DNA of 64,000 nucleotides from assembly GCF_013337685.1 (NCBI RefSeq), contig NZ_SUQN01000007.1, forward strand, positions 62,001-126,000. Direction: 5' to 3'. This DNA comes from Citrobacter gillenii (GTDB lineage Bacteria; Pseudomonadota; Gammaproteobacteria; Enterobacterales; Enterobacteriaceae). The notes below the pieces were generated by a model. It was given only the letters and a program-made list of their open reading frames with translations, was not told where the DNA came from and did no database searches. Positions 1 to 40,285 of this stretch are shown here, piece after piece. Both the position numbers and the translations under genes were made by a program. Within the stretch, counting starts at the first letter, position 1; every line of letters begins with the position of its first letter.

Positions 1-115
1 AGAACAGTGGCAGGAAAAAGCCAATGCGCTGGCGAAACTGTTTATCGAAAACTTCGAGAAGTATACCGATACCCCAGCGGGTGCCGCGTTAGTCAGCGCC
101 GGTCCGAAGCTGTAA
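1..115 (+). CDS. pckA: Phosphoenolpyruvate carboxykinase (ATP), C-terminal fragment
   Basis: Only the last 37 codons and the TAA are in the window; reading starts in frame at base 2. The tail ends in AGPKL, as in enterobacterial PckA, which makes PEP from oxaloacetate with ATP in gluconeogenesis. The identification rests on this short tail plus position: pckA lies next to envZ-ompR in E. coli. The active site lies outside the window. A strong intrinsic terminator follows directly, so transcription is unlikely to run into the toxin-antitoxin genes downstream. Confidence 0.9.
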
Positions 116-6838: not shown

Positions 6839-9157
6839 ATGAAAAAACTAACCATTGGTTTAATTGGTAATCCTAATTCCGGCAAGACAACATTATTCAA
6901 TCAGCTTACCGGCGCGCGTCAGCGTGTGGGTAACTGGGCTGGCGTTACCGTTGAGCGCAAAGAAGGTCATTTCTCGACAACTGACCATCAGGTTACGCTG
7001 GTGGATTTACCCGGCACCTATTCTTTGACGACCATCTCATCGCAGACCTCCCTCGATGAGCAAATTGCCTGTCACTATATCTTAAGCGGCGATGCTGACC
7101 TGCTGATCAACGTGGTTGATGCCTCAAACCTCGAGCGTAACCTCTACCTGACGCTGCAACTGCTTGAACTGGGGATCCCCTGCATCGTCGCGCTGAACAT
7201 GCTGGACATTGCTGAGAAGCAGCAAATCCGGATTGATATCGATGCCCTTTCCGCCCGTCTGGGCTGCCCGGTGGTGCCGCTGGTCTCAACCCGTGGTCGC
7301 GGGATTGAAGCACTGAAGCTGGCTATCGATCGCTACAAAGAAAACGACACCGTCGAGCTGGTACATTATGCCCAACCGCTGCTGCGTGAAGCCGAGTCTC
7401 TGGCTGACGCGATGGCCAAAGAGATGCCGCAGCAACAACGTCGCTGGCTCGGTCTGCAGATGCTGGAAGGCGATATCTACAGCCGTGCCTACGCGGGTGA
7501 TGCGGCACAAAATCTGGATGCCGCGCTGACTCGCCTGAGTGAAACAATGGACGATCCGGCGCTGCATATTGCTGATGCACGTTACCAGTGCATTGCCGCC
7601 ATCTGCGATACCGTCAGCAACACCCTGACCGCAGAGCCAAGCCGCTTCACCACCGCGGTCGATAAGGTCGTACTTAATCGCTTCCTCGGCCTGCCAGTAT
7701 TTCTGTTCGTAATGTACCTGATGTTCCTGCTCGCCATTAACATCGGTGGCGCGCTGCAGCCGCTGTTTGACGTCGGTTCCGTGGCACTCTTTATCCATGG
7801 TATTCAGTGGATTGGCTACACCCTGCACTTCCCGGACTGGTTAACCATCTTCCTGGCGCAGGGTCTTGGCGGCGGGATTAACACCGTGCTACCGCTGGTG
7901 CCGCAAATCGGCATGATGTACCTGTTCCTCTCATTCCTCGAAGACTCCGGCTATATGGCGCGTGCTGCGTTTGTGATGGATCGTTTGATGCAGGCTCTGG
8001 GATTACCGGGTAAATCGTTTGTCCCGCTAATTGTCGGCTTCGGCTGTAACGTCCCTTCCGTGATGGGCGCACGCACGCTGGATGCACCGCGTGAACGTCT
8101 GATGACCATCATGATGGCGCCGTTTATGTCCTGCGGTGCGCGTCTGGCGATTTTCGCCGTGTTTGCTGCGGCGTTCTTTGGCCAGAACGGCGCGCTGGCC
8201 GTCTTCTCATTGTACGTACTGGGTATCGTCATGGCGGTACTGACCGGCCTGATGCTCAAGCACACCATTATGCGTGGCGAAGCCACACCGTTCGTGATGG
8301 AGCTGCCGGTTTACCATGTACCGCACGTTAAAAGCCTGGTCATTCAGACCTGGCAGCGGCTGAAAGGCTTTGTCCTGCGCGCCGGTAAAGTCATCATCAT
8401 CGTCAGTATTTTCCTCAGCGCGTTTAACAGTTTCTCCCTGAGCGGAAAAATCGTCGATAACATCAACGACTCGGCGCTGGCGTCCGTCAGTCGCGTAATC
8501 ACCCCTATCTTCAAACCGATTGGCGTACACGAAGATAACTGGCAGGCCACCGTGGGTCTGTTCACCGGAGCCATGGCAAAAGAAGTGGTTGTCGGTACGC
8601 TGAATACGCTCTATACCGCAGAAAATATTCAGGAAGAAGAGTTCAACCCAGCCGAGTTCAACCTCGGTGACGAGTTAGCAGGTGCGCTGGGTGAAACCTG
8701 GCAAAGTCTGAAAGATACCTTCAGCCTGAGCGTGCTGGCTAACCCTATCGAAGCCAGCAAAGGCGACGGTGAGATGGCAACCGGCGCAATGGGCGTGATG
8801 GGTGCGAAGTTCGGCAGCGCCGCCGCCGCGTACAGTTACCTGATTTTCGTGCTGCTGTATGTCCCGTGCATTTCGGTAATGGGCGCTATTGCTCGTGAAT
8901 CCAGCCGTGGCTGGATGGGCTTCTCCATTCTGTGGGGACTGAACATCGCCTACTCTCTGTCGACGCTGTTTTACCAGACGGTCAGCTACAAAGAGCATCC
9001 GACCTACAGTCTGGTGTGCATTTTAACCGTCATTCTGTTTAACATCGTGCTGCTGGGAATGCTGCGCCGCGCACGCAGTCGGGTAGATATCGAACTGCTG
9101 GCGACCAATAAGACGCCAGGTTCCTGCTGTGCCAGCACCACCGGCGATTGCCACTAG
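6839..9157 (+). CDS. feoB: Ferrous iron permease FeoB
   Basis: 772 residues (E. coli 773). The N-terminal G domain has G1 GNPNSGKTT (about 10-18), G3 DLPG (about 55) and G4 NMLD (about 120). A GDI-like helical segment follows, then the polytopic membrane part from about residue 280 with two Gate motifs (PFMSCGARLAIF; FVLLYVPCISVMG). It ends in a Cys-rich tail (SCCASTTGDCH). It moves Fe(II) across the inner membrane. It is flanked by feoA and feoC in one operon. Confidence 0.98.
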   Translation: MKKLTIGLIGNPNSGKTTLFNQLTGARQRVGNWAGVTVERKEGHFSTTDHQVTLVDLPGTYSLTTISSQTSLDEQIACHYILSGDADLLINVVDASNLERNLYLTLQLLELGIPCIVALNMLDIAEKQQIRIDIDALSARLGCPVVPLVSTRGRGIEALKLAIDRYKENDTVELVHYAQPLLREAESLADAMAKEMPQQQRRWLGLQMLEGDIYSRAYAGDAAQNLDAALTRLSETMDDPALHIADARYQCIAAICDTVSNTLTAEPSRFTTAVDKVVLNRFLGLPVFLFVMYLMFLLAINIGGALQPLFDVGSVALFIHGIQWIGYTLHFPDWLTIFLAQGLGGGINTVLPLVPQIGMMYLFLSFLEDSGYMARAAFVMDRLMQALGLPGKSFVPLIVGFGCNVPSVMGARTLDAPRERLMTIMMAPFMSCGARLAIFAVFAAAFFGQNGALAVFSLYVLGIVMAVLTGLMLKHTIMRGEATPFVMELPVYHVPHVKSLVIQTWQRLKGFVLRAGKVIIIVSIFLSAFNSFSLSGKIVDNINDSALASVSRVITPIFKPIGVHEDNWQATVGLFTGAMAKEVVVGTLNTLYTAENIQEEEFNPAEFNLGDELAGALGETWQSLKDTFSLSVLANPIEASKGDGEMATGAMGVMGAKFGSAAAAYSYLIFVLLYVPCISVMGAIARESSRGWMGFSILWGLNIAYSLSTLFYQTVSYKEHPTYSLVCILTVILFNIVLLGMLRRARSRVDIELLATNKTPGSCCASTTGDCH

Positions 9158-34863: not shown

Positions 34864-35970
34864 TTACGCTAGCTGACGCAGCATCCGGCGCAATGGTTCC
34901 GCAGCACCCCAGAGCAGCTGATCGCCCACGGTAAAGGCTGACAGGAACTCCGGCCCCATATTCAGCTTACGCAGACGACCGACTGGCGTGGTCAACGTAC
35001 CGGTAACGGCCGCTGGGGTTAACTCACGCATGGTGATATCCCGATCGTTTGGCACCACTTTCGCCCACGGATTGTGCGCGGCCAGCAGTTCTTCCACGGT
35101 CGGAATCGACACATCTTTTTTCAGTTTAATCGTGAACGCCTGGCTGTGGCAGCGCAGTGCGCCGACGCGCACGCACAGACCATCTACCGGGATCACAGAA
35201 GACGTGTTAAGAATTTTGTTGGTTTCCGCCTGCCCTTTCCACTCTTCGCGGCTCTGGCCGTTATCGAGCTGTTTGTCGATCCACGGAATCAGGCTCCCGG
35301 CCAGCGGGACGCCAAAGTTATCAACCGGCAGGGAGCCGCTACGGGACAGGGTTGTCACTTTACGTTCGATATCGAGGATAGCAGAAGAAGGGGTCGCCAG
35401 TTCATCGGCCACATGGCTATACAGATGGCCCATCTGCGACAGCAGTTCACGCATATGACGCGCGCCGCCGCCGGAAGCCGCCTGGTAGGTCGCCACGGAC
35501 ACCCAGTCCACCAGATCGTTGGCGAACAGACCGCCGAGTGACATCAGCATCAGGCTAACGGTGCAGTTACCGCCGACAAACGTCTTGATGCCGTTGTTCA
35601 GACCATCGGTGATCACATTCTGGTTAACCGGATCGAGAATAATGATGGCATCGTCTTTCATGCGCAGTGAAGAGGCCGCGTCAATCCAGTAACCCTGCCA
35701 ACCGCTTTCACGAAGCTTTGGATAGATTTCGTTGGTATAATCGCCGCCCTGACAGGTCACAATAATGTCGAGCGCCTTCAGCGCATCGAGATCAAATGCA
35801 TCCTGAAGCATGCCGGTGGAGGTCGCACCAAACGTCGGTGCCGCCTGCCCAAGCTGGGAAGTAGAAAAGAAAACAGGGCGAATGGCGTCGAAGTCGCGTT
35901 CTTCTACCATGCGTTGCATGAGTACAGAGCCGACCATACCGCGCCAGCCGATAAAACCAACATTTTTCAT
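34864..35970 (-). CDS. asd: Aspartate-semialdehyde dehydrogenase
   Basis: The start [14 protein letters not shown] gives 368 residues (E. coli 367, one extra residue around FGATSTG). The NADP-binding GxxGxxG is GWRGMVGSV (8-16) and the active-site cysteine is Cys136 in [12 protein letters not shown]. It makes aspartate semialdehyde from aspartyl phosphate, feeding Lys/DAP, Thr and Met synthesis and therefore the cell wall. A 28-codon in-frame extension upstream is unconserved. Monocistronic, divergent from yhgN. Confidence 0.98.
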
Positions 35971-36160
35971 AGCGTTTTTTTCCTGCAGAGATGTGTGCTG
36001 TGTATGTACGCCATTATCCTGTGACGTATCCTTCACCATACAAAAAGCAGCCAAAGTCGCAAGTGAAATTAATCAATGATAGCGAAGCCATCAGTAATGC
36101 GACTTATCCCGCTGCGCTCGCAAGCAGAAAGTCCGCGGTAATTATCAGGGAATTTGAGTT

Positions 36161-36754
36161 ATGAATGAAATCATTTCAGCGGCAGTTTTATTGATCCTGA
36201 TTATGGATCCGCTCGGAAATCTGCCCATTTTCATGTCCGTATTGAAACATACTGAACCGAAACGCCGTCGCGCAATTATGATTCGCGAGCTGTTTATTGC
36301 GCTGCTGGTGATGCTGATATTCCTGTTTGCGGGCGAGAAAATTCTGGCATTTCTTAACCTGCGCGCGGAAACCGTGTCGATCTCCGGGGGCATCATTTTG
36401 TTCCTGATCGCCATCAAGATGATTTTCCCCAGCGCCACCGGTAACAGCACCGGACTGCCCGCAGGCGAAGAGCCGTTTATCGTTCCACTGGCCATTCCGC
36501 TGGTGGCGGGCCCCACCATCCTGGCGTCGTTGATGCTGTTGTCGCATCAGTACCCGAATCAGATGGGACATCTGGTGATTGCCCTGCTGATCGCCTGGGG
36601 CGGAACGTTTGTGATTTTATTGCAGTCGTCGCTGTTCCTGCGCCTGCTGGGTGAGAAAGGGGTTAACGCGCTCGAGCGCCTGATGGGGCTGATTCTGGTG
36701 ATGATGGCAACCCAGATGTTCCTCGATGGCGTACGGATGTGGATGAAGGGGTGA
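36161..36754 (+). CDS. yhgN: MarC/YhgN family inner-membrane protein
   Basis: 197 residues with six predicted hydrophobic segments, the E. coli YhgN length. Family features are MDPLGNLPIFMSVL near the N terminus and VPLAIPLVAGPTILASLML in the middle. The MarC family was once linked to antibiotic resistance without support, and its transported substrate is unknown. In K-12 gntU follows directly; here a BIME and a satellite-like insertion intervene. Confidence 0.95.
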   Translation: MNEIISAAVLLILIMDPLGNLPIFMSVLKHTEPKRRRAIMIRELFIALLVMLIFLFAGEKILAFLNLRAETVSISGGIILFLIAIKMIFPSATGNSTGLPAGEEPFIVPLAIPLVAGPTILASLMLLSHQYPNQMGHLVIALLIAWGGTFVILLQSSLFLRLLGEKGVNALERLMGLILVMMATQMFLDGVRMWMKG

Positions 36755-36765
36755 CGCACTCATAT

Positions 36766-36854
36766 TACGCCGGGTGGCGGCTTCGCCTGACCCGGCCTAC
36801 GATGTGGATGTGTGCTCGTTTGTAGGCCCGGTAAGCGCAAGCGCCACCGGGCAA
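36766..36854. repeat. BIME left of the satellite-like insertion
   Basis: CGCCGGGTGGCGGC-...-GACCCGGCCTAC plus an inverted GTAGGCCCGGTAAGCGC...GCCACCGGGC. Positions 36790-36854 are 61/65 identical to 38345-38409 on the other side of the insertion, including most of the linker. Confidence 0.9.
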
Positions 36855-36946
36855 CCGTTTTGAAGCTGGAGAGCATGGCATTTCAGAGAACGATTCCGTT
36901 CACGTTATGTTCATTGCTTCTCTGAGATCTCGTCACCGGTGAACGT

Positions 36947-36974
36947 GTTAAGGGGGCTACGCAGCCCCCTTAAC
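36947..36974. terminator. Perfect 12-bp hairpin at the left end of the insertion
   Basis: GTTAAGGGGGCT-ACGC-AGCCCCCTTAAC, without a T run on either side. It could be a weak terminator or a structural element of the satellite end. Confidence 0.6.
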
Positions 36975-37079
36975 AATCCCGGCTCTCCGGCAGGAAAATC
37001 GCCGCTTCGCGGTTCCCTCCACTTATTCCTCCAGGCTACCGGGCCGGGCGCGAGGCAGCGTCCATGCAAAACGCGCCCT

Positions 37080-37436
37080 GAACCCGCATCCCTGCGGGTT
37101 CTCCCGGCCTTACGGAAACGCGTCGGCAATTTTCAGCCGGACCAGCCCACACCTGACCACCTGAGCTTTTACTTGAATACCTCTGAACAGCAAAACGGAT
37201 ATAGCTGAAAGCCAGAGCGCTGAAGCGACACCCTAGTCCGGCTGAAAATCGATGAGGTGTTGACGGCTGACCGGGTCTGCCCGCAGGGATGCGGGCAGAG
37301 GGGACGGCCTGCATGGATGCAGGCTCGGCCCCGACCCGACAGGCAGACGGAATAAGACGAATAACTCGCGCAGCGACGATTTTCCCGCCGGGAGCCTGGG
37401 TTGCAAGGGAGGCGGCGGTGAGCCTCCCTTGCACGT
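37080..37436. repeat. Cluster of perfect inverted repeats (non-coding)
   Basis: GAACCCGCA/TGCGGGTTC (37080-37101), CTGCCCGCA/TGCGGGCAG (37277-37298), GCCTGCAT/ATGCAGGC (37307-37324) and TGCAAGGGAGGC/GCCTCCCTTGCA (37402-37433). A distant pair, ATTTTCAGCCGGAC at 37129-37142 against GTCCGGCTGAAAAT at 37236-37249, encloses 93 bp. The first two hairpins share the core CCCGCA-loop-TGCGGG. No credible gene lies inside; reading frames here are by-products of high GC. Confidence 0.75.
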
Positions 37437-37569
37437 TCACGGGCATCAGCGCTTCAGAGAAATGACACCACTCAGGTGAACGGAACCCTGAGCAAAAATC
37501 ACATGTTCACCCTACATGCTTAACTGAACGGCATTGCACTGTAATTTCAGGTATTCCTTATGCTTTTAA

Positions 37570-37854
37570 ACCGCTGAGAAAACATATTTTCATTTCTGCG
37601 AAGCGCCTTCCGGAATACGCTCTTGTCAGCATCGCGGATTAGCATTATCTTCTCGCTGCTCCTGCAAAATCAGGTGCCGGGATTGGTCCCCTGATTACCT
37701 CATTCGCGATAAAATCACTTTTATCGTGCGACCAGTTACACCTCTATGGTGGGCTGGACGGTGGCGTCGTAAGACGCGCCGGTATCCAATGAGGCCGGTA
37801 GGACCAACTCCGTTCAGCCCGCCACCAAAAGGTTGGTCCCTTAGGTGGTGGTAA
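37570..37854 (+). pseudogene. Ash-like P4 immunity-region open frame without a start codon
   Basis: After a TAA at 37567-37569 the frame stays open for 94 codons and ends at TAA 37852-37854, but has no ATG, GTG or TTG until an ATG 22 codons before the end. The translation runs through CQHRGLALSSRCSCKIR, RDWSPDYLIRDKITFIVRPV, TPLWWAGRWRRKTRRYP and ends FSPPPKGWSLRWW. I recall very similar peptides from P4-like satellites near ash/eta. It may be decayed coding sequence or a conserved RNA that only looks coding. Confidence 0.45.
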
Positions 37855-37872
37855 AATTTGACTCATTGGAGG
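37786..37872 (+). promoter_or_regulatory. Structured leader with three interleaved inverted repeats over the SD of the orphan gene
   Basis: CCAATGAG (37786-37793) pairs with CTCATTGG (37862-37869), whose last bases are part of the SD GGAGG (37868-37872). Inside, GGACCAAC (37801-37808) pairs with GTTGGTCC (37832-37839), and CCGCCACC (37819-37826) can pair with GGTGGTGG (37844-37851, one G-U). The inner two interlock, so they are either alternatives or a pseudoknot. A GCGTC-GTAA-GACGC hairpin with a GNRA-type loop lies just upstream (37764-37777). Translational control is inferred. Confidence 0.6.
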
Positions 37873-37879
37873 CTGCCCT

Positions 37880-38326
37880 ATGGCGACTACCCCTCTCTTT
37901 TCACACTCTTTATTTACCCTGCCCTTTAGCCATGCCACAGATTTCACCGAGCTGGCGGATAACTGCGAGCGTTTTGTCGAAGGACTTGTTGAATGCCATG
38001 ACCCGGTTGAAAAACTGGCGATTTGTGCGCGGCTGTCGGCCTGTCTGGCACTATTGCAACCAACCTTAACGGAACCTGTACCGCATCACCTGCAAGCCAG
38101 CCTGACGGTGGAAACATTCCCCACCCGTTCTCCGCTCTTTGAGCCTGAACCCGACCAGATGGGGCGCTACTGTCAGTTATTAACGCACCTGCTGATGAGT
38201 AAAACGCTGTCTGACGAGATGGAACGCGTGGCGGGTGATTTACTGCAGGATCTGGTGGAATATTTCGCCGATACGCTAAAAGCACCGCGCTGGCTGAAAA
38301 CAGAAGAAGGGTTGGTCGTGCTATAA
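37880..38326 (+). CDS. Uncharacterised 148-residue protein of the satellite-like region
   Basis: ATG 37880 follows GGAGG by 7 nt, an excellent ribosome site. The product is acidic, soluble and predicted mostly helical. Features: LADNCERFVEGLVECHDPVEKLAICARLSACLALLQP, a proline-rich middle, and a C-terminal helix ERVAGDLLQDLVEYFADTLK ending APRWLKTEEGLVVL. No signal peptide, membrane segment or catalytic motif seen. The genomic slot (behind an ash-like leader, beginning MATT) is one used by small regulators in P4-like elements, but I do not recognise the family. It ends beside a BIME; gntU is convergent. Confidence 0.8.
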   Translation: MATTPLFSHSLFTLPFSHATDFTELADNCERFVEGLVECHDPVEKLAICARLSACLALLQPTLTEPVPHHLQASLTVETFPTRSPLFEPEPDQMGRYCQLLTHLLMSKTLSDEMERVAGDLLQDLVEYFADTLKAPRWLKTEEGLVVL

Positions 38327-38331
38327 AAAAG

Positions 38332-38409
38332 CCGGGTAGCGCTTACCCGGCCTACGGTGTGGAAATGTGCTCGTTTGTAGGCCCGGTAAGCGCTAGCGCC
38401 ACCGGGCAA
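38332..38409. repeat. BIME right of the satellite-like insertion
   Basis: GCCGGGTAGCGC-TTACCCGGCCTAC plus inverted GTAGGCCCGGTAAGCGC...GCCACCGGGC. It forms a 65-bp near-copy (four mismatches) of the left BIME segment and may also act as terminator for gntU and the orphan gene. Confidence 0.9.
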
Positions 38410-38414
38410 TGCCC

Positions 38415-39755
38415 TCAGCTCAATAGCTGGAAAGCAATCATACCGACAATTGCACCGACCGTGCCGAGGATGGTTTCCATCATCGTCCAAGTCTTCAGCG
38501 TTTGCGCTTCGGTCGCACCAGTGAACTTACCGAACAGCCAGAAACCGGCGTCATTCACGTGACTGACCACGATAGAGCCACCCGCGATACAGATAGACAG
38601 GGCCGCCATCTGCGCGCCGGAGAAGTTCAGCTGTTCAATCACCGGCATCACCAGACCGACCGCCGTTAAGCAGGCCACGGTTGCAGAACCCTGAATGATA
38701 CGCACCGCCGCTGCCAGCACGAAGCAGGTGATGGCAATCGGCAGGCCCATACCGGTTAATGCTTCACCCAGTGCCGGACCGACACCAGAATCCACCAGCA
38801 CCTGCTTGAATACGCCACCAGCACCGATCACCAGCAGAATAATCCCCGCCGGTTGCAGCGCATGACCGCAGATCTCCATCACTTTGTCTTTTGGCATCCC
38901 CTGGCGAATGGCCAGGCCGTAAATCGCCACCAGGCACGCCACCAGAATCGCGGTGAACGGGTGACCGATAAACTCGAACCATTCGTAGGTTGAAGAACCG
39001 ACCGGCACAAAGCGTGCGGCGATGGTTTTCAGACCCACCAGTACCAGCGGCAGCAGGATCAGCGACAAGCTGAAGCCGAAGGACGGCATTTTCCCCTCGC
39101 CCAGATGCGGCTCGGTAATGTCTTCCGGCACGTGCAGCTCAACGTAACGGCTGATAAAATTGCCCCACAGCGGCCCGGCGATAATCATGCCCGGGATCGC
39201 CGCACACAGGCCAATCAGGATCATCCAGCCAAAGTCGGCGTGCATCTGAGAAGCCAGCAGCATCGGCGCGGGCCCCGGCAGCAGAAACGCCGCCGCTGCC
39301 GCCACGCCCGCAAACAGCGGAATGACCAGCTTAACCAGGTTGGTACCGGTGTGGCGCGCCATCGAGAACGCCACGCTTATCAGCAGCACAATCGCCACTT
39401 CAAAGAACAACGGTAATGCGCAAATCAGACCGGCCAGGCCAATCGCATAGTGCGCGCGACTGTGACCAAAGGATTTCAGCATTTTGACGGCAATCTGATC
39501 GACCGCGCCCGTTTCATGCAAAATCTTACCGAACATGGCACCGAGAGCGACCACAATCGCCAGGAAGCCCAGCGTTCCCCCCATCCCTTTTTCCATGGTG
39601 GCCGCGATTTTATCGAGCGGCATACCGGAAAAGAGACCTGCACCAATAGACACCACCATCAAAGCAACGAAGGCGTGCATACGCGCCTTCATTACTAAAA
39701 ACAGCAGTAATAAAACAGACCCTACTGCTGTTAAAACAAGCGTTAATGTAGTCAC
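38415..39755 (-). CDS. gntU: Low-affinity gluconate transporter GntU
   Basis: 446 residues, GntP family, E. coli length. It begins with GTG at 39755, overlapping the gntK stop by one base (TAGTG), so translation is coupled. It is polytopic, with family motifs such as GMGGTLGFLAIVVALGAMFGK, FLLPGPAPMLLA and SIVVSHVNDAGFWLFGKF. It imports gluconate. It is paralogous to GntT at 12-13.3 kb and follows gntK in the gntKU unit under GntR. Confidence 0.96.
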   Translation of the reverse strand: MTTLTLVLTAVGSVLLLLFLVMKARMHAFVALMVVSIGAGLFSGMPLDKIAATMEKGMGGTLGFLAIVVALGAMFGKILHETGAVDQIAVKMLKSFGHSRAHYAIGLAGLICALPLFFEVAIVLLISVAFSMARHTGTNLVKLVIPLFAGVAAAAAFLLPGPAPMLLASQMHADFGWMILIGLCAAIPGMIIAGPLWGNFISRYVELHVPEDITEPHLGEGKMPSFGFSLSLILLPLVLVGLKTIAARFVPVGSSTYEWFEFIGHPFTAILVACLVAIYGLAIRQGMPKDKVMEICGHALQPAGIILLVIGAGGVFKQVLVDSGVGPALGEALTGMGLPIAITCFVLAAAVRIIQGSATVACLTAVGLVMPVIEQLNFSGAQMAALSICIAGGSIVVSHVNDAGFWLFGKFTGATEAQTLKTWTMMETILGTVGAIVGMIAFQLLS

Positions 39756-40285
39756 TACTTACTGCCTTGGTTTATAACCTCAATGGTGCTCGCTACCACA
39801 CCGTCCAGTGGTTGATCGATATCCACCACCAGTACATCGCTTTCGTCCGCACCCGGTTCTTCCAGCGCATCAAACTGGGTAACCAGCATCTGCGTTTTGA
39901 AGAAGTGACCTTTGCGCGCTTTCAGGCGGCTTTCAATCACGTCGAAGTCCCCTTTCAGGTAGATGAAAGAGAGATTCGGATTGCCTTCGCGAAGCAGGTC
40001 GCGATAGTGTTTTTTCAGCGCAGAACACACGATCAGCGAGACCTTGTTGGTACGCTGCATCGCAAAGGCGGCGTCATTGAGCGCCTGTAACCACGGCTTA
40101 CGGTCGTCGTCGTTCAACGGCTCACCGGCGGCCATTTTCGTGATGTTGCTGCGCGGATGGAGAAAATCGCCATCAAGAAACGCGGCCTGCAGTTGATGCG
40201 CCACTTCGCTGGCGACAGCAGATTTACCGCTGCCCGATACGCCCATCAGAACGTAAACGTGGTGATCATGATTAGTCGTGCTCAA
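39755..40285 (-). CDS. gntK: Gluconokinase GntK (thermoresistant)
   Basis: 176 residues. The P-loop is GVSGSGKS (15-22), with FLDGDFLHP downstream binding substrate and HFFKTQMLVTQFDALEEP near the C terminus. It phosphorylates gluconate to 6-phosphogluconate for the Entner-Doudoroff and pentose-phosphate paths. Twin GntR operators lie upstream; gntU overlaps downstream. Confidence 0.97.
   Translation of the reverse strand: MSTTNHDHHVYVLMGVSGSGKSAVASEVAHQLQAAFLDGDFLHPRSNITKMAAGEPLNDDDRKPWLQALNDAAFAMQRTNKVSLIVCSALKKHYRDLLREGNPNLSFIYLKGDFDVIESRLKARKGHFFKTQMLVTQFDALEEPGADESDVLVVDIDQPLDGVVASTIEVINQGSK

Follow-up and report, generated by a model that had tools for sequence, protein, structure and literature searches.

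In satellite P4, pairing of a C4-type RNA with the leader targets a1 and b1 brings about early termination. C4 is also the heteroimmunity RNA of phages P1 and P7 (PMC5320573, PMC12197685), where, by the account given in PMC5320573, it is processed by RNase P to an RNA of ~77 nt and its loops a´ and b´ act at the ribosome site of the target mRNA, icd/ant. C4 and c4-a1b1 motifs have been described in proteobacteria and phages (Weinberg et al., PMC2864571), and Acinetobacter baumannii was described as carrying many chromosomal C4-like sRNAs (Group 1) per genome, with variable loops (PMC5320573). RNA control of a phage gene has further been described for the Gifsy-1 IsrK-orf45-anrP locus, where IsrK activates anrP in trans (PMC4825925).

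Here we analyzed a 64,000-nt stretch of Citrobacter gillenii DNA (the window; C22:62001-126000 of genome G000) and found a C4 RNA upstream of an orphan gene, g148, between yhgN and gntU. We read the segment at ~37560-38326 as a stand-alone, C4-locked effector gene that would be silent until C4 is titrated or lost, and assign this reading a probability of roughly 0.75.

Two unrelated elements lie between yhgN and gntU

An earlier note on this DNA had proposed a single element inserted between yhgN, whose product matches MarC (PF01914, E = 5e-64), and gntU. Two perfect hairpins of 12-13 bp, a 159-nt imperfect inverted repeat (71%) and the open reading frame are indeed present, but they belong to two unrelated elements, a MITE at ~36858-37537 and the C4-locked gene at ~37560-38326. 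REP/BIME-like repeats lie to the left, at 36769-36854, and to the right, at 38331-38414, immediately 3´ of the g148 stop codon, with a 68-nt stretch of the left repeat 93% identical to the right-hand one. Six relatives of the genus without the module have one REP/BIME-like repeat, or part of one, at the site.

The GGTGAAC repeats that had been taken for a P4-like origin were also found, with three copies of GGTGAAC, five of GTGAAC and one of GGTGAACA in 36880-37540, but the origin reading was rejected, as the segment is an IS4-type MITE and its single copy of GGTGAACA, the exact P4 type-1 iteron, compares with 11 in P4 crr+ori. Across the 64-kb window, GGTGAACA occurs six times, all on the minus strand and one within the interval considered here, against 1.94 expected; thus the window is mildly rich in GGTGAACA and the segment forms no cluster.

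A near-palindromic transposon with IS4-type ends

The hairpin half of the interval corresponds to a MITE, a non-autonomous transposon that is almost palindromic and has IS4-type ends (36858-37537, the left limit being approximate). The near-palindrome spans ~36894-37489, and the right terminal repeat, TTAACTGAACGGCATTGC at 37520-37537, is an IS4-like end, while the left end is truncated next to the REP-like repeat. Within its own genome, the stretch gave 17 matches at nine places, window included, because a palindrome matches on both strands. Several of these pieces are located at contig ends, and one further copy is near full length (C21:305606-306260, 88%). Matches were detected in 15 of 17 genomes of the genus. 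This describes a MITE family of IS4 type; 5376 of 5426 E. coli genomes contain partial relatives, none of which cover 80% of the query.

Alignment of 29 copies with their flanks gave the ends TAATGC...GCATTA among the copies listed. Under loose limits (up to 7/19 and 6/17 mismatches), both IS4-like ends were recognized in 16 of 21 copies tested, and no intact end pair in the other five. Fourteen of the two-ended copies measure 684-746 bp and two are shorter through internal deletion. A target duplication of 10-13 bp scored ≥5 in nine of the 16, compared with 16 of 240 mismatched flank pairs, a family-level result that derives from copies other than the one in the window. Seven of the 16 rebuilt targets fold at z ~ -2 or lower, and an IS4 copy (L075) has MITE-like ends and a 12-bp duplication in a terminator-like stem-loop. 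The IS4 subgroup is characterized by -AATR ends and direct repeats of 10-13 bp (PMC2266710, Table 1). IS4 and these MITEs thus have in common the ends TAATGC..GCATTA, duplications of ~10-14 bp and several insertions into terminator-like stem-loops; the window MITE differs from IS4 in its large internal palindrome and in carrying no transposase. No IS4 transposase match was detected in G000, and whole or partial matches were found in three of the 17 genus genomes. One of these 17 genomes (G003) keeps the C4 RNA and g148 with no MITE, and the two elements are therefore independent.

One arm of the MITE gave a weak match to the Rfam motif TwoAYGGAY (RF01731; 36986-37146, minus strand), whose 33.8 bits fall below the gathering score of 43 and so do not place the arm in this family. 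Scores of 35.7 and 31.5 were obtained in two of 11 other loci. The arms in the window, L005 and L072 resemble the motif over its full length, below threshold, a resemblance that may point to a relationship between the MITE and the motif. We also noted unannotated, intergenic stretches of ~170-250 bp related to a MITE arm in three E. coli loci (L071, L072 and L073), located at aqpZ-lysO, at asmA-yegH and next to proX and an MFS gene.

A C4 RNA precedes an orphan gene

Reading the second element from its 5´ end, a predicted promoter, TTGTCA-17-TATCTT (37623-37651, plus strand, as are all features of the module), was identified by eye; its loose form TTGNNN-16..18-TANNNT is present in 66 of 77 module copies, a count that has no chance control. 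A leader follows at 37645-37724 with the putative targets a1 (37683-37689) and b1 (37698-37704). It matches isrK (43.2 bits, gathering 50) and c4-a1b1 (35.9 bits, gathering 46.7), both below the gathering score. Thus the locus resembles Gifsy-1 in its isrK-like leader, as well as in RNA control of a gene, but the isrK match is sub-threshold and the IsrK of Gifsy-1 acts in trans, according to the description in PMC4825925. A terminator-like hairpin, CGATAAAA..TTTTATCG (37707-37726, by eye), separates the leader from the C4 antisense RNA at 37742-37829.

This RNA belongs to Rfam family RF01695, as it scores 77.9 bits against a gathering score of 45, has the full-length structure (model positions 1-87 of 87) and, in its loops, is complementary to the g148 ribosome site. 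Its a´ GGACCAAC (37801-37808) is complementary to target a2 GTTGGTCC (37832-37839), and its b´ core CCAATGAG (37786-37793) is predicted to pair with target b2 CTCATTGG (37862-37872), which overlaps the Shine-Dalgarno sequence GGAGG. The structured immunity RNA that the earlier note had expected is thus borne out; it is of P4/P1 type and has a P4-like layout. In a scan of 20 related loci, the C4 score exceeded gathering in 19; the exception was L048, and at its place in the larger locus L123 C4 likewise was not recognizable.

An ash-like frame had also been reported for this region. There is a frame (37726-37854), but it seems to be no more than the C4 RNA region in translation. In E. coli, frames that carry the annotation "ash family protein" overlie C4 RNA in the same way (L076:15041-15214), and the annotated E. 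coli frame over the C4 region scored 23.0 bits for PF10554, where the cut-off is 26. Part of the Ash family may thus be C4 RNA read as protein.

The gene itself, at 37880-38326, is an intact 148-aa ORF with a strong ribosome site, in agreement with the orphan gene that had been noted. The window protein has no match in Pfam, PHROGs, NCBIfam or PADLOC. For 31 family members compared with curated families, only weak matches were obtained, involving one or two members each (best E = 0.007), and there was no match to the sequences of solved structures at E = 1. Structure prediction gave a four-helix bundle (pLDDT 84.9, pTM 0.78), and the matches of this model in structure searches are of the sort that any helical bundle yields. 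Among the family matches listed, most have frames without internal stops, and the consensus for the start of the protein is MATTxTxxH. Across 21 pairs from seven genus genomes dN/dS is 0.02-0.08, which indicates that the g148 protein is under strong purifying selection. The same seven genomes have three matched b´/b2 alleles, CCAATGAG/CTCATTGG, CCGATGAG/CTCATCGG and CCAGTATG/CATACTGG, at one orthologous locus; as these track the divergence of g148, they need not have been swapped in.

g148 has the head of a P4-type locus and stands alone in many genomes

In the P4 record (X51522), C4 is at 8420-8507, and the leader and the a1b1-C4-gene order are as in the window. The P4 CI RNA-kil region and the g148 locus both have the C4 RNA, the a1/b1 leader and a target that covers the ribosome site, and their controlled genes have the first codons in common, the P4 frame beginning MATTLTPSHP. 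We take this P4 frame, for which X51522 has no annotation, to be Kil. The bodies differ, as Kil is ~65 aa and g148 148 aa, and g148 stands alone in the chromosome. A g148 family profile found none of the P4 proteins (best E = 0.35), and blastp with the single sequence gave at best E = 0.004, with 25% identity over 51 aa of ORF88. By sequence, g148 occupies the kil slot of P4 and has the first codons of Kil in common, not its body.

When 50,697 phage records were searched by BLASTN (E = 1e-5), a comparison that the earlier note had suggested for satellites, nine records matched, all of them in the leader, C4 and gene start only. At each of six other phage and prophage C4 loci examined (P4, SfV, yong2, 2H10, TB4019 and rl0044, the last with its C4 loop itself uncaptured), a GGAGGCTGCC site (five) or a AGAGGCTGCC site (one) precedes a gene that begins with MA(T), and the bodies behind match PHROGs of regulators, Rha and antirepressors. 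A C4-shaped pattern retrieved 17 viral contigs (a second pattern retrieved none), whose downstream proteins, with starts chosen by pairing energy and groups named by eye, comprise seven Kil-like, seven antirepressor-like, the pair L407/L409 and one single. Since seven of the 17 lead to antirepressor-like proteins without a MAT start, the MAT head is not universal. For L407 and L409, the sequence has at the site a start, ATGGCT, other than the one chosen by pairing energy. The L407/L409 pair weakly resembles g148 (E = 1.1e-5 and 0.0039 against 17 sequences). We infer that C4 control has been joined to different bodies, some of which are related. Target sets of the window type (the three Citrobacter alleles) gave 117 pattern matches in viral contigs, none with a C4 layout by eye and two with a loop-like string upstream.

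On L407, an IMG/VR contig, C4 and a short helical frame are accompanied by Integrase_1-like and primase-like genes (names by eye); this contig is possibly a satellite relative of the island form described below.

Within the genus, the module is intact in seven of 17 genomes (the window's own included), damaged in two, reduced to MITE traces in two and missing from six. The interval thus is not an ancestral one present in all close relatives, an outcome that the earlier note had set against its proposal. All seven intact modules lie between yhgN and gntU, and the close relatives that have lost the locus or carry it disrupted include one from the same species (G004). At the family level, 49 of 198 genomes sampled have g148 matches, which represent 37 of 154 genera and number up to 12 in a single genome. 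A scan of genome contigs gave 62 named g148 loci, the nearest of which are Citrobacter, with titles that include Citrobacter, Kosakonia, Enterobacter, Escherichia, Salmonella, Klebsiella, Serratia, Erwinia, Dickeya, Pantoea and Photorhabdus, among others. Three loci without Citrobacter titles (L163, L166 and L122) have g148, yhgN and gntU in one stretch, and L165 has g148 with yhgN alone. The same site is occupied in L163, titled Enterobacter, and L166, titled Enterobacteriaceae RIT714, and among nine loci whose two flanks match by tblastx the proteins are 67-98% identical.

Some copies are part of islands, in which a gene for an HTH_35 protein comes after g148, an order that suggests that the role of g148 may be regulatory. 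Of seven E. coli chromosomal g148 regions, six are near tRNA-Asn or tRNA-Thr, some adjoining restriction or reverse-transcriptase genes, and the seventh, for which no tRNA is listed, is surrounded by RHS and type VI secretion genes; a plasmid copy adjoins tail genes. At the E. coli tRNA-Thr site, the neighbor of g148 is a large reverse transcriptase in L076 and a type I restriction system in L222; AbiE genes are close by, and g148 lies between the cargo and the tRNA end.

These neighborhoods bear on the proposal that the locus is the remnant of a P4-like satellite that kept its origin, immunity RNA and one cargo gene, which we regard as unlikely. The order a1b1-C4-gene and the resemblance of MATTLTPSHP to the g148 consensus start are what a satellite origin would leave, as is the C4 of L407 next to Integrase_1-like and primase-like genes. 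Furthermore, relatives of all three island proteins that we searched for within 4 kb on each side of g148 (HTH_35, Integrase_1 and the tyrosine integrase of L002, which presumably resembles P4 Int) were found at 15 of the 62 named loci. However, 38 of the 62 named loci showed none of the three, and neither did 30 of 40 further loci, two sets that overlap in genomes and in which short contigs could hide neighbors. In the interval itself, no integrase, alpha, sid, delta or psu gene was found among the ORFs of 35500-40000, inspected by eye, with five scanned against Pfam and four against PHROGs and NCBIfam. The immunity head that is common with P4 and a single "cargo" gene are what stands of the stripped satellite; clustered type-1 iterons and genes for replication and packaging are lacking, the supposed origin is the MITE, and g148 corresponds to no P4 protein.

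The C4 loop and its own ribosome site have coevolved

If C4 acts as a lock on g148, loop and target should match within each locus. We scanned 107 upstream regions of g148 relatives, some genomes counting twice through two collections, and the script recognized the C4-like second hairpin in 89, a few of them doubtful (for example L156), and not in 18. For 44 unique loops, again with a few doubtful, duplexes with the own ribosome site average -13.1 kcal/mol, compared with -6.3 for other sites, a difference that none of 5000 shuffles reached, and the own target is best or tied for 29 of the 44. At the b1 region, the corresponding values are -12.95 and -8.23. The reverse complement of the loop gave no signal (2912 of 5000 shuffles as good), and a small excess remained with the plainly reversed loop (6 of 5000), perhaps from shared composition.

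We then considered an alignment of 64 distinct rows, from which four oddly matched copies (L138, L142, L148 and L156, with own energies of -3.0, -5.8, -10.0 and -10.1) had been excluded beforehand. Over the eight b´-b2 pairs, 96.8% of cells are paired, compared with 75.3% upon shuffling and 29.9-50.5% upon sliding by one to three columns. Changes on both sides were observed for all eight pairs, in 110 cells compared with 28 in shuffled alignments, counts that are not independent events because the rows are related. For a´-a2, pairing is 87.1% compared with 71.3% shuffled, a figure that retains an eighth pair misplaced in most rows (61 of 64 unpaired), and two other measures do not rise above shuffles, namely pairs with a double change (424 of 500) and additional pair types (500 of 500). 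From these comparisons, lock-key pairing is kept by compensatory change across the 64 distinct copies. This sets the C4 of g148 loci, which goes with a single effector family and has coevolved with the ribosome site there, apart from the A. baumannii sRNAs, for which targets are proposed only, in the account of PMC5320573. The likeness to P1 and P7, where C4 controls icd/ant rather than g148, is by description and not by sequence. Among the literature matches listed, with partial coverage, we found no report of a C4-controlled 148-aa chromosomal gene family or of the MITE.

Four of the 18 regions in which C4 was not recognized (L166, L172, L174 and L176) have an intact gene and a ribosome site, and the lock is therefore dispensable; the 18 also include regions that are damaged, masked or missed (L209, L200 and L146). 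No C4 was found by script upstream of two distant members, L154 and L155. In the four copies with intact genes, C4 is gone and a target-like sequence remains at the ribosome site, and in L176 the leader and a2 look fused, as though C4 had been deleted between repeated targets.

A further alternative, somewhat less probable than a satellite remnant, is that selection acts on the C4 RNA, which as a resident immunity RNA would silence entering phages or satellites of the same specificity, with the gene as by-product. The heteroimmunity by C4 reported for P1/P7 (PMC5320573, PMC12197685) offers a precedent, and the many specificities among the 44 loops are in line with it. By contrast, the strong purifying selection on the protein and the copies that lost C4 and kept the gene argue against it. 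Moreover, loops from the same genome differ from one another no more than chance would predict, as four sharing pairs were observed within genomes and 4.24 are expected from label shuffles (2994 of 5000 as low or lower). Among 79 copies, 61 of which had a loop, sharing pairs number 4 of 110 within genomes and 67 of 1720 between; L131 and L263 are one locus fetched twice, which makes the within-genome figure 3 of 109. That the module is decaying junk, an inert prophage scrap, is very improbable, for although it is patchy and deleted in several genus genomes, dN/dS is low, most listed frames are free of stops, lock-key pairing is maintained, and the yhgN-gntU site is occupied in L163 and L166, with 67-98% protein identity among the nine loci.

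A model for a C4-locked effector gene

The reading that we prefer, a stand-alone effector gene under a C4 lock, suggests the following mechanism. A single promoter would give a transcript with the targets a1/b1, the C4 RNA and g148, from which C4 would be excised, as is known for P1/P7. Through a´ and b´, C4 would then pair with a2 and b2 over the ribosome site and stop translation of g148, and pairing with a1/b1 may also favor early termination at the hairpin upstream of C4. Expression of g148 would be off while C4 is made and on upon its loss or titration, the simplest titrator being the RNA of an entering element with matching targets. Judged by position, g148 would be a conditional effector, either one that inhibits growth or division or one that regulates mobile elements; kil in P4 and the antirepressors of lambdoid phages may be positional analogues. 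The neighboring MITE would be an independent passenger.

A broader extension, which we consider speculative and rather improbable, is that enterobacterial chromosomes hold dispersed, self-locked sentinel genes, in which RNA of an incoming phage or satellite bearing the same targets would titrate C4 and free a helical effector, which would then arrest growth or block the invader. Locks would diversify to dozens of specificities, each still matched to its own gene, and the C4 head would be a portable off-switch joined to different effectors (Kil, antirepressors, g148).

What sequence comparisons make solid is that a widespread orphan gene has a coevolving antisense lock. C4 RNAs were known from phage immunity; in the present loci, C4 is tied to an orphan effector family in many Enterobacterales genera, at loci that often are without the tested island genes. 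Since the antisense lock coevolves with the ribosome site, a direct test is possible of which elements would open the lock and how the released protein would act.
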